A stretch of 17,415 bases of DNA from an uncultured Mordavella sp. (GTDB taxonomy: Bacteria; Bacillota; Clostridia; Lachnospirales; Lachnospiraceae), in the NCBI GenBank assembly GCA_902406105.1, contig CABPCP010000059.1, positions 1 through 17,415 of the forward strand, given 5' to 3'. Below the pieces are notes generated by a model, which worked only from the letters and a program-made list of their open reading frames with translations, did no database searches and was not told the origin of the DNA. Position numbers and translations under genes: made by a program. This document shows, piece by piece, positions 14,803 to 17,415 of the stretch; position 1 is the stretch's first letter; every line of letters starts with the position of its first letter.

Positions 14803-15293
14803 TTACACTCTCCTTTTTCTCTTATTTTCTCCCGCACCCTTTTTTCCACAATTTCAGGTACGAACTGAGAAATATCCCCTCCAAAAGCTGCCACCTCTTT
14901 TACAATGGTGGAACTTAAATATGAATACTCCAGTCTTGTAGTCAGGAACACCGTCTCAATGGACGGCTCCAGTTTATGGTTGGTCTGTGCCATCTGCAGT
15001 TCATACTCAAAATCTGTGATCGCCCGCAAACCTCTAACCACCATCCTGGCTTCCATTTTTCTGGCAAATTCCACCAATAATCCCTCAAATGGAACAACTT
15101 TAACTTTTGGTAAGTCTTTTGTAGCTTCTTCTAACATTCTAACACGTTCCTCTACCGAAAACAACGGCATTTTTGCCTTATTATACAATACTCCGACAAT
15201 TAATTCGTCCACCATCTGACAGGAACGTTTAATAATATCCAGATGTCCATAGGTAACCGGATCAAAGCTGCCCGGATAGATTCCTCTTAACAT
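14799..15293 (-). CDS. coaD: Phosphopantetheine adenylyltransferase
   Basis: A 164-residue nucleotidyltransferase of the CoaD family, which joins ATP and 4'-phosphopantetheine to give dephospho-CoA, the penultimate step of CoA synthesis. [16 protein letters not shown] (6-21) holds the T-x-G-H motif (Thr14, His17). [18 protein letters not shown] (about 87-104) and the [13 protein letters not shown] stretch (about 124-136) are conserved substrate-binding regions. The length is typical. It overlaps rsmD by 7 bp and has GGGGGAGG 8 nt before its ATG, inside the rsmD coding sequence. The rsmD-coaD order is widespread in Firmicutes. Confidence 0.97.
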
Positions 15294-15856
15294 ACTGTCT
15301 GCCTCCCCCTTGGCTCAATAAATACGTGCTTATTGGTTTTATAAATCTTATTTTTAATGACGGCAAAACCAAGATCTTCCAGATAATCAAAATTCGTCTC
15401 CTTGGCCGCCTCCACAATGATCACGCCTTCCTCCGCCAAAAGCTCAGATCCGGCCAGGTATTCCAGGGCTTCCCTCTCCAATTCTTTCCCGTAGGGCGGG
15501 TCCATAAAGATAAAATCAAACTGCTGATTACCTTCCAGCCTGCGAAGAGCCGTCATGGCATCCACCGGCATTGTCTCCGCTTTATGGGCAAGCTTGGTAT
15601 GGGCAAGATTCTCTTTGATACAAGCCATAGCCTTCGGATTCTTGTCCACAAAATAAGCCTTCATAGCTCCCCGGCTCAAAGCCTCGATTCCGATTCCCCC
15701 GCTTCCGGCAAAAAGATCCAGAAAAATGCAATCGTAAAGATAAGGAGTCAGCATATTAAAAAGCGTCTCCTTGATCCGATCCGTAGTCGGCCTGGTCTCA
15801 AAACCATCCAACGTTTTCAATTGTAATCTTCTGGCAGAACCTGCAATAACTCTCAT
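15287..15856 (-). CDS. rsmD: 16S rRNA (guanine966-N2)-methyltransferase
   Basis: A 189-residue SAM-dependent RsmD-family enzyme that methylates G966 of 16S rRNA in the 30S head. The N-terminus [15 protein letters not shown] and [15 protein letters not shown] (22-36) are typical of the family. The SAM-binding motif is [18 protein letters not shown] (46-63), FVDKNP (69-74) follows, and the catalytic N/DPPY motif is DPPYG (119-123). The ATG at 15856 has GAGGGG upstream. It is the first gene of the rsmD-coaD-coiled-coil operon and has a strong promoter immediately beside the left end of the PadR cassette. Confidence 0.97.
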
Positions 15857-15923: not shown

Positions 15924-16020
15924 GACGTAGCATCTTTTCAATTTACTACGTCTCAAATTAACTTTTGCCCTGTACCCAAATGTAAATCAGGGTGTACCAA
16001 ATTGCATTTTACCCTGTACC
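15924..16020 (+). repeat. Left inverted end: hairpin plus three 22-bp repeats
   Basis: GACGTAG (15924-15930) pairs with CTACGTC (15946-15952), and four more base pairs outside form after one bulged G. TGTACC motifs start at 15971, 15993 and 16015, exactly 22 bp apart. The full layout is repeated in inverse orientation at 17185-17281. No T-run follows the hairpin, so it is not a terminator here. Confidence 0.85.
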
Positions 16021-16036
16021 TTTTTTCTTTTTTCAA

Positions 16037-16064
16037 TTGACTTCTTTCTACTTTGTGTTACAAT
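16037..16064 (+). promoter_or_regulatory. Sigma-A-type promoter of the padR operon
   Basis: TTGACT (16037-16042) and TACAAT (16059-16064) are separated by 16 nt, 44 nt before the padR start. The promoter lies just inside the left end array. The 11 bases TCAATTGACTT (16033-16043) occur in inverted form at 15912-15922, across the rsmD -35 box. Confidence 0.6.
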
Positions 16065-16098
16065 ATAGTTAAGATTACTACTGTGTAGTGCAAAGTAG
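16048..16098 (+). promoter_or_regulatory. Candidate PadR operator around the padR promoter
   Basis: CTACTTTG (16048-16055) and CAAAGTAG (16091-16098) form an 8-bp inverted repeat that flanks the -10 box and start-site region. Between them lies ACTAC-TGT-GTAGT, a smaller palindrome. PadR-family repressors commonly bind dyads in their own promoters, so autorepression is plausible but unproven. Confidence 0.35.
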
Positions 16099-16108
16099 GT
16101 GGTTTTAA

Positions 16109-16435
16109 ATGTATGACAAATCTCAATTGCTGCGCGGGACTTTGGAGGGCTGCATTCTGCAGATTCTTTCTCTTGATACTACGTATGGATATGAGATCGT
16201 ATCTAAATTGCAGTCCTACGGTTTTGAAGATGTTCGCGAAGGTACAATTTATCCTCTTCTTCTGCGCCTAGAAAATAAGGGGATTATTTCTTCTGAATTC
16301 CGTCCCTCTCCTTTAGGGCCACGCAGAAAATATTACTCAATCACAAAAGACGGCCGGTTGTATTTGGATGAATTTAAGCACTGTTGGCGCCAGGTTGTAA
16401 ATTCGATCAATCAGATTTTTGAAATGGAGGAATGA
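16109..16435 (+). CDS. PadR-family transcriptional regulator
   Basis: A 108-residue winged-helix repressor of the short PadR (subfamily 2) type. LLRGTLEGCILQILS (7-21), TYGYEIVSKL (25-34) and the wing entry EGTIYPLLLRLENKGII (44-60) are present. GPRRKYYSITKDGRLYL (70-86) completes the wing, and a C-terminal helix (about 88-105) would form the dimer. Members of this type usually repress themselves and a neighbouring membrane-protein operon, often responding to cell-envelope stress or small molecules; no ligand can be predicted here. The AGGTGG ribosome-binding site lies 6 nt before the ATG. The next gene starts 3 nt after its stop. The pair sits inside the inverted-end cassette and appears more AT-rich than the surrounding genes. 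Confidence 0.95.
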   Translation: MYDKSQLLRGTLEGCILQILSLDTTYGYEIVSKLQSYGFEDVREGTIYPLLLRLENKGIISSEFRPSPLGPRRKYYSITKDGRLYLDEFKHCWRQVVNSINQIFEMEE

Positions 16436-16438
16436 ATT

Positions 16439-17185
16439 ATGACAAATTCAAATCTTTCTCTAGAGACATTGAAATCAGAAAATTTCTCTCTTCAATCCGG
16501 ACTCACGGCTAAAAATCGGCGGATCCTCGAGAAAATGTTCCGCTATATCCGTACCTTTCCGCTGGATGAGTATCATGTAGAATTAATTCATCAAGATCTG
16601 ATCGGGATGGCTAAAGAAGCAGAAATGCGTCAAGAATCTTTTCCTGGAACTTTGGGAAAAGCTCCTCTTTCTTTCTGTGATGACCTGCTTCTGGCTTCCG
16701 GTCAAATCTCGCTTCCCGCCGGCCGGCGTCTATTGCGGATCTCCGGTTGGTATTACCACATCGTTGGAGGGTTCTTTGCTCTAATCAGTTTTTTGAATGT
16801 CGCAGGACTAATCATCGGTTCTCTTGCAGGCGGAGAAATCTGGGTCTTGAAAACAATGTCTGGAGAAAAGCTCGTGCTTTTTCTTTGTCAATTGTTTACT
16901 CTTGCAGGCGGAATTCTCTATCTGTTGGCAGGAGACCGTGCCAAGCGCTACAGCTCCAATAGTTCTAGAGCAAATTGCTGCTTAAAATGGGGATTTTTCC
17001 TGCTTCTATTGCAGATCATTTCCGTTCTATCTAACTACATTCTTCAATCACTCAACCTAATTACCACTATAAGCAGCGTCGTCCCTTCCATCGGAATCGT
17101 CCTTCAAATCATCACGATCATAGAATTCATTTTCCCGCTTCTATATATTCTGGGGGCCTGGAAAAACAAGGAAAAAAACAACTAG
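16439..17185 (+). CDS. Four-helix membrane protein partnered with PadR
   Basis: A 248-residue protein not recognised as a named family. Residues 23-73 form a soluble helical region (KNRRILEKMFRYIRTFPLDE, then HQDLIGMAKEAEMRQESF...LG) that resembles the HAAS/DUF1048-like domain often encoded beside padR genes. Four hydrophobic segments follow (about 105-130, 145-165, 181-203, 212-240), and a short Lys-rich tail ends the protein. It is therefore likely an inner-membrane protein whose N-terminal domain faces the cytoplasm. GGAGG in the last padR codons serves as its ribosome-binding site, so it is coupled to padR. Its TAG stop supplies the first G of the right-end GGTACACC array. A regulatory or sensory role with PadR is inferred; no transporter motif is seen. 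Confidence 0.8.
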   Translation: MTNSNLSLETLKSENFSLQSGLTAKNRRILEKMFRYIRTFPLDEYHVELIHQDLIGMAKEAEMRQESFPGTLGKAPLSFCDDLLLASGQISLPAGRRLLRISGWYYHIVGGFFALISFLNVAGLIIGSLAGGEIWVLKTMSGEKLVLFLCQLFTLAGGILYLLAGDRAKRYSSNSSRANCCLKWGFFLLLLQIISVLSNYILQSLNLITTISSVVPSIGIVLQIITIIEFIFPLLYILGAWKNKEKNN

Positions 17186-17281
17186 GTACACCCCGCTGTT
17201 CATTTTGGTACACCCTTCTTTACAGTTTGGTACACCGCAAAATGAAAAAGGGGACGTAGTAAAACTTCGATTTACTACGTC
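17185..17281 (-). repeat. Right inverted end: three 22-bp repeats plus hairpin
   Basis: GGTACACC motifs start at 17185, 17207 and 17229, exactly 22 bp apart. After 18 nt comes GACGTAG (17253-17259), and CTACGTC closes the hairpin (17275-17281). Read on the minus strand, this matches the left end (15924-16020) in order and spacing without gaps. The middle repeat interval is best conserved (TGTAAA and AGGGTGTACC shared). Confidence 0.85.
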
Positions 17282-17295
17282 CCCTTTTTCATTTT
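17239..17295. terminator. Strong bidirectional terminator hairpin of the padR operon and the SASP gene
   Basis: A perfect 25-bp stem (17239-17263 with 17271-17295) encloses a 7-nt loop. The core is GGGGACGTAGTAAA, and A/T-runs lie at the base on both sides. It lies between the convergent padR operon and the SASP gene and contains the hairpin of the right cassette end. The left end has only a short, imperfect version. Confidence 0.85.
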
Positions 17296-17302
17296 TCATT
17301 CA

Positions 17303-17415
17303 TTATTTCCCAGCCATCTGTTTTTCCTGCTGTTCGATCATTTTCTTAACCATATAACCGCCAACGGAACCATTCTGTCTGGATGTCAGGTCTCCGTTAT
17401 AACCTTCTGTCAACG
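17303..17415 (-). CDS. Alpha/beta-type small acid-soluble spore protein, C-terminal part (cut by window edge)
   Basis: The last 36 codons of a spore DNA-binding protein run in from the right edge. GDLTSRQNGSVGGYMVKKMI (residues 7-26 of the visible part) matches the second conserved DNA-binding helix region of alpha/beta-type SASPs, and EQQEKQMAGK ends the protein. These proteins coat the forespore chromosome, protect it from UV and heat, and are degraded at germination. Normal full length is about 60-95 residues, so the start and promoter lie outside the window. The stop is 8 bp from the shared terminator hairpin. Confidence 0.9.
   Translation of the reverse strand, partial: LTEGYNGDLTSRQNGSVGGYMVKKMIEQQEKQMAGK

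Follow-up and report, generated by a model that had tools for sequence, protein, structure and literature searches.

Hairpin-plus-box repeats of REP/RAYT type around a padR operon and across related Lachnospiraceae genomes

The padR operon and its two flanking structures

The window, by which we mean the whole analysed stretch of 17,415 nucleotides from an uncultured Mordavella sp., carries close to its right edge a padR operon enclosed by two inverted structures of 97 bp (15924-16020 and 17185-17281). They face each other, that is, they are oriented inward, and are identical at 65 of 97 positions when compared without gaps. Each starts on its outer side with a hairpin of the form GACGTAG-N15-CTACGTC (15924-15952 and 17253-17281), followed after a gap of 18 nt by the first of three TGTACC boxes with a period of 22 nt. 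The boxes start at 15971, 15993 and 16015 on the plus strand at the left end, and at 17185, 17207 and 17229 at the right end, where they lie on the reverse strand and read GGTACA. This mirror-image layout was the core of the original prediction, and its coordinates, spacing and count of matching positions were all reproduced. Its judgement that such matched spacing is unlikely by chance held up as well: 200 dinucleotide-preserving shuffles of the window contained neither a hairpin at two or fewer mismatches nor a triple TGTACC box with three mismatches allowed. The 3′ hairpin feet, CGTCTC and CGTCCC, differ from TGTACC at three and two positions, respectively; the foot lies one 22-nt step ahead of box 1 and is hence in register with the array.

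All genome counts given here come from genomes other than the window's own. The nearest genome, G001, shares 94% of the window's sampled 31-letter words and has the same locus; together with G002 and G003 it provides the three congeneric species used for comparison. The locus comprises the following features.

15287..15856, minus strand: rsmD, the left neighbour (Pfam PF03602, 7.7e-53)
15924..15952, plus strand: left hairpin GACGTAG-N15-CTACGTC, its stem imperfectly extended by outer bases (outer pairs covary, 117 copies)
15971..16020, plus strand: left box array, TGTACC three times with a period of 22 nt (no box disrupted in G001, G002 or G003)
16037..16064, plus strand: promoter-like hexamers of padR, TTGACT (16037) and TACAAT (16059), with a 16-nt spacer, a putative promoter
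16048..16098, plus strand: inverted repeat across the padR promoter, a candidate PadR operator (arms 16048-16069 and 16077-16098, 73%)
16109..16435, plus strand: padR, encoding a PadR-family regulator of 108 aa (Pfam PF03551, 3.6e-22)
16439..17185, plus strand: padR partner, encoding a 248-aa protein of unknown family (hydrophobic stretches by eye)
17185..17234, minus strand: right box array, TGTACC three times with a period of 22 nt (identical in G001 and G003; beyond the contig end in G002)
17253..17281, minus strand: right hairpin GACGTAG-N15-CTACGTC (stem extends through 17239-17295)
17306..17415, minus strand: SASP gene, the right neighbour, truncated by the window end (94% over 36 aa to G003)

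The names rsmD and SASP are ones we take to be correct, and they agree with those used earlier. The partner protein, for which neither Pfam nor NCBIfam gave a match, is probably a membrane protein, judging from its hydrophobic stretches; matches to it were found in 7 of 61 genomes, three congeneric (98, 83 and 61%) and four weak (E 1e-4 to 6e-10). The dyad at 16048-16098 is separate from the TGTACC boxes, and padR probably controls itself through an operator of its own.

A dispersed repeat family and its RAYT genes

Does this arrangement occur elsewhere? A query with the left end gave 57 matches in G001, where the pattern GACGTAG-N5..25-CTACGTC returned 50 hairpins, all of 29 nt, as against one for a control pattern. 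Box 1 lies 18 nt from the hairpin in 44 of the 50 copies, and the number of boxes varies: 21 hairpins have one, 17 have two, six have three and six have none. Sites consisting of a hairpin foot plus a box (one mismatch allowed) number 39 in G002 and 28 in G003; the element lists are motif-based, built on hairpin arms in G001 and on foot and box in the other two. Three-box arrays in G001 amount to eight, six of which stand in inward pairs (assessed by eye, one degenerate middle box being accepted in two). TGTCAC occupies the middle position in two G001 three-box arrays, at 1030629 and 2008944.

Over 117 copies, the outer three stem positions are paired in 67-94% of copies versus 35-87% in shuffles. 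The 15-nt interior showed no covariation, with pairing near the shuffled level, and full pairing through it was therefore discarded; its halves look modular. GTAG lies within the paired arm, matched to CTAC.

The closest pair seen of family-1 elements, as we call this family, is about 530 bp apart, and pairs under 2 kb are commoner than expected by chance (6 versus 1.4 in G001; 7 versus 0.5 in G003). Where orientation could be compared, four close pairs point inward and none outward in each of G001 and G003, at the same four loci. Independent insertion does not explain this excess of close pairs together with the absence of outward ones.

One inward pair in G001 (1029671 / 1030629) encloses RAYT1, a 260-aa gene matching Pfam Y1_Tnp at 9.4e-8. 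Against the NCBIfam REP_Tyr_transpos cut-off of 80, RAYT1 falls below at 75.3 and RAYT2, a paralogue 45% identical to it (G001 154811-155578, locus L122), passes at 80.6. Searching PDB sequences with phmmer gave nothing for RAYT1 at E 0.01; the best PDB match of its structural model (pLDDT 89.6) is 4ER8, a RAYT with a REP hairpin, at E 5.4e-6. H61, H63 and Y120, presumably the catalytic residues, are invariant across 15 aligned rows. In G003, RAYT1 occupies the orthologous place between the same inward ends. Its C-terminal extension is helical in the model, which gave no Foldseek match below E 2.9 for this part, and the extensions of ten members had no helix-turn-helix (HTH) family in common. 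An HTH there was considered and gained no support, HTH_20 and HTH_31 each appearing in one of ten members at E ~0.08-0.09 amid unrelated Pfam families.

These findings bear on the two kinds of mobile element to which the ends had been likened. The REP/RAYT model is favoured by some 50 dispersed copies and by the same structures flanking a Y1/HUH RAYT gene, and the comparison with IS21- or Tn7-type ends gains no support, the sole transposase gene found with cognate ends being of Y1 type. Among 299 genomes of the family, ten have at least three hairpins, and a RAYT match at E ≤ 1e-57 is found in nine of these ten versus 4 of the 289 others; the four genomes in the latter group each contain at most one such hairpin. 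One genome, G257, 82% complete, has 15 hairpins and no RAYT match, which suggests that the RAYT is missing or lost.

RAYT2 of G001 is flanked by members of a second element family, whose hairpin, GGGGCCGGGGGATTTTT, and TGTCCC boxes both differ from those of family 1. This second family gives 146 forward rows in G001 (in which many copies appear twice, one base apart), 12 in G002 and none in G003, where RAYT2 is flanked by a different hairpin. A scan of named genomes, taken over the best 80 loci, revealed matching hairpins on both sides at 25 of 75 testable RAYT loci by a strict script; at least 16 of these 25 have boxes by eye, the remainder having other hairpin types or being unclear. When 47 of these 80 loci were passed through a looser script, 33 of which it printed, hairpin-plus-box ends appeared at further loci and none at some, with box types TGTACC, TGTCCC or TGTG[TC].

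Box types are clustered on the RAYT phylogeny. On a RAYT tree of 50 rows, 34 of them labelled by eye with a box type, three changes of box type are needed as compared to a shuffled mean of 11.0 (none of 200 shuffles as low); the shuffles show clustering only, and near copies contribute to it. The tree comprises 46 of the best 80 loci plus four rows taken from G001 and G003; a locus containing two stops was dropped, and a Hespellia locus with a CCGTCA box was left unlabelled. An earlier tree lacking the Mediterraneibacter rows likewise gave three changes (shuffled mean 10.1).

Lone elements, shared loci and the status of padR

A partner in G001 was located by both flanks for 20 of the 28 G003 elements and by one flank for two more; for the 39 G002 elements the numbers are 30 and six. 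Across the 22 G003-G001 pairs, identity amounts to 95-100% in the arms and first box and mostly to 30-70% in the flanks, the former value being partly due to the search motif, with sister sites that have lost the motif falling outside the count. At the stem foot, these pairs agree in only 27% of cases at position -2 and 18% at position +1, and CT follows the arm in 28/28 G003 copies versus 5/50 in G001 and 2/39 in G002.

Conversely, 28 G001 elements have no G003 partner. We examined 20 G003 stretches at interpolated places, targeting 18 of these 28, along with stretches already at hand, and located both flanks in G003 for six elements; in all six the element is absent as a lone block, with no cargo, which may reflect gain or loss. 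For one of them (2468772) G003 retains a small remnant similar to the foot of the element, and this absence may reflect decay. Two G003 loci, L156:2378 and L159:2398, hold a family-1 element where G001 has family 2; at the latter G002 has a family-2 element too, the former having been compared with G001 only. Fresh insertion in G003 was rejected for both, as the alignment places a family-2 element at the same position in G001.

At the padR locus itself, padR and its partner adjoin rsmD in all three congeneric species, and the SASP gene then follows in G001 and G003, at 75-85% DNA identity. The G002 contig (genome 92% complete) stops inside the partner gene, before the right end. Both end structures are present in G001 and G003 and the left one in G002; the TGTACC boxes are kept in G002 and G003 while their flanks diverge, and the base preceding left box 3 differs in G002. 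When 20 genomes were searched with RsmD, G001 and G003 were the only ones with padR at the locus. Among the other 18, seven are operon-free and show the SASP gene within the 1.5 kb examined, an interval in which no SASP gene came up for the remaining 11. The operon-free rsmD-SASP gap of G181 (L322), from another genus, contains one element, box and hairpin, beside the SASP gene and oriented like the right end in the window; element and operon are thus separable. The corresponding gap of G111 (L319), likewise outside this genus, has a hairpin of another type, and those of G322, G062, G130 and G217 showed no such element by eye.

Two other inward pairs in G001 surround genes that we take to be hydF and a pyrE-like gene. 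The left neighbour of hydF is kept in seven other genera, six of which have no element by the patterns used and one of which (G189) has one. For the pyrE-like gene, an ilvC marker, an out-of-frame 68-aa reading that serves as a positional marker only, lies nearby in four of six other genera, and an element in none of the six.

Relation to known systems and rival explanations

How does this family relate to described ones? In those passages of PMC8266576 that we cite, REP-type elements are taken as single-stranded substrates of an HUH RAYT, with the hairpin as the primary signal, and RAYT-REP coevolution is described. The present family resembles such REPtrons in its dispersed palindromes and its cognate Y1/HUH RAYT flanked by them, in the presence of the RAYT at a shared locus in sister species and in the joint change of repeat and RAYT (the cited parts of PMC8266576). 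Three hallmarks are at hand: a RAYT-type Y1/HUH transposase (Y1_Tnp 9.4e-8, 4ER8, RAYT2 at 80.6), many dispersed palindromes (50 hairpins in G001, 39 and 28 foot-plus-box sites in G002 and G003) and a RAYT gene flanked by its own palindromes. Unlike classical REPs, however, there is no unpaired GTAG tag, GTAG here being paired in the stem; the hairpin bears a 22-nt phased array of mostly one to three boxes; and the hosts are Lachnospiraceae. Unlike REPINs or BIMEs, family-1 elements form no pairs only tens of bp apart. IS21 and Tn7 likewise have several phased repeats at each end, and in this the structures resemble them. They differ in that the hairpin is outermost, elements occur singly without cargo, and the transposase gene that came up between cognate ends is a RAYT of Y1 type, no DDE transposase having been found with them.

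RAYTs flanked by terminal inverted repeats have been described (PMC3733652, as far as excerpted here). Like these TIRtrons or TIRYTs, and like TnpA-REP subclass 2.1 in the sections of PMC6006769 drawn on, the RAYTs studied here have a C-terminal extension, and their flanking inverted repeats form moderately abundant genomic families. Subclass 2.1 is characterised in those sections by a long RAYT that ends in an HTH and whose gene has no REP-like sequences nearby, unlike the plain hairpins and dispersed copies found here; compared with that long protein, RAYT1 has 260 aa and a helical C-terminal extension sharing no HTH family and matching no fold. Nor is the TIR motif GGGG[AT][CG]A[CG] matched: the foot here reads GGGGACGT, and more distant RAYTs (L255, L257) carry GGGGTCAG at the foot. 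Box arrays are absent from the descriptions of TIRYTs and subclass 2.1 in the cited portions of PMC3733652 and PMC6006769. In the open-access collection searched, no paper describing such a family in Lachnospiraceae, Dorea or Firmicutes appeared by title and abstract opening among the matches listed. What we describe is a Lachnospiraceae repeat family of REP/RAYT type in which each unit joins a hairpin to a phased array of boxes: REP/RAYT-like in its presumed working, minus the unpaired GTAG tag and plus the boxes.

How REPs spread and why cells retain RAYTs is treated as an open question in the cited part of PMC8266576, and the DNA target of RAYTs with a C-terminal HTH extension as unsettled in that of PMC6006769. 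In the present family, clear candidate targets of hairpin-plus-box form go with RAYTs that carry a C-terminal extension, two paralogues in one genome go with different boxes, and further variation exists across genera, making the hairpin and box codes directly testable.

The observations comprise anatomy, copy number, RAYT association, the presence or lack of single elements, their persistence at loci shared between species, and a RAYT tree on which box types cluster. The reading we hold very probable is that each 97-bp structure is a non-autonomous, dispersed REP-like element of a RAYT and that padR is a bystander between independent copies. The element consists of a 29-nt hairpin, its stem extending outward, and of TGTACC boxes, one to three in number, that keep a 22-nt register with the foot. 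The HUH domain of the RAYT would bind the hairpin in single-stranded DNA, and the RAYT would move the elements. The boxes would be sites that the RAYT recognises or cleaves, present in several copies and perhaps read by its helical C-terminal extension; most simply, they would be repeated copies of the foot motif that the RAYT binds or cuts. The padR operon would be a genus resident between two independent element copies. Counting against this account are the RAYT1 score under the NCBIfam cut-off, the paired GTAG, the six boxless G001 hairpins, the lack of interior covariation, the C-terminal model without a fold match, G257 without a RAYT, the RAYT genomes with 0 or 1 hairpin and the excess of close pairs.

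That last excess (6 versus 1.4; 7 versus 0.5) speaks for the mobile cassette originally proposed, here taken with a transposase acting in trans, whose two ends would move padR and partner as cargo; in the same direction point the inward arrangement around a RAYT gene, the six of eight G001 three-box arrays in inward pairs (by eye) and the 7 of 18 other genomes whose SASP gene lies close to rsmD with no operon. Yet the operon sits at one locus in all three congeners, with a single partner-gene match in each (G002 being 92% complete), lone elements are present or absent without cargo, and in other genera hydF and the pyrE-like gene each retain an adjacent gene, for the most part with no element detected. 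Operon-free rsmD-SASP sites of the kind originally looked for exist in those seven genomes, and that of G181 already holds a single element. We rejected the cassette on these grounds and regard it as quite improbable. Faring worse still is the idea that the boxes are PadR-binding sites. Although they lie immediately upstream of padR and right after the partner gene, the hairpin recurs at 50 places in G001, the regions with listed genes contain unrelated ones, and a distinct dyad overlaps the padR promoter; that the ends serve only as operators of padR homologues is accordingly very unlikely, and we dropped this model.

Alternatively, the elements might be sites for a host protein, a regulon or nucleoid structure that merely resembles mobile DNA, the RAYT being incidental. 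The orthology of 20 of 28 G003 sites would fit this, as would arms and first box kept between flanks of 30-70% identity (partly a search-motif effect) and a changed stem-foot base common to 28/28 G003 copies. Against it, elements are present or absent as lone units, RAYT genes are flanked by such elements in several genera, and box type clusters on the RAYT tree, so that we judge it improbable. Returning to the RAYT-driven element, a more elaborate version of it is conceivable, though doubtful: the array could be a helically phased code read by a RAYT-branch C-terminal domain, with the RAYT rewriting its own sites in place. The code assignments in that version, TGTACC for RAYT1, TGTCCC for RAYT2, and TGTGY and others elsewhere, are similarly tentative. 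If true, phased code and rewriting would explain one changed base in all 28 G003 copies, mostly at shared loci, and the exchange of family 1 and family 2 at two loci.

Finally, some segments of 3.6-8.3 kb in G001 lie between same-direction elements where one or both sister species keep a single element:

2181568-2185263 (G001): same-direction bracketed segment, locus L058
2217592-2221193 (G001): same-direction bracketed segment, locus L059
3270735-3279029 (G001): same-direction bracketed segment, locus L052

From the alignments, these differences look like recombination between element copies. At a further G001 locus (L056, 1867153-1868894), a 498-aa ORF, which to us resembles an IS1182-type transposase, is bracketed by two family-1 hairpins; immediately inside each hairpin stands a 12-nt sequence, the two being nearly identical, so that an IS may have inserted into an element here.
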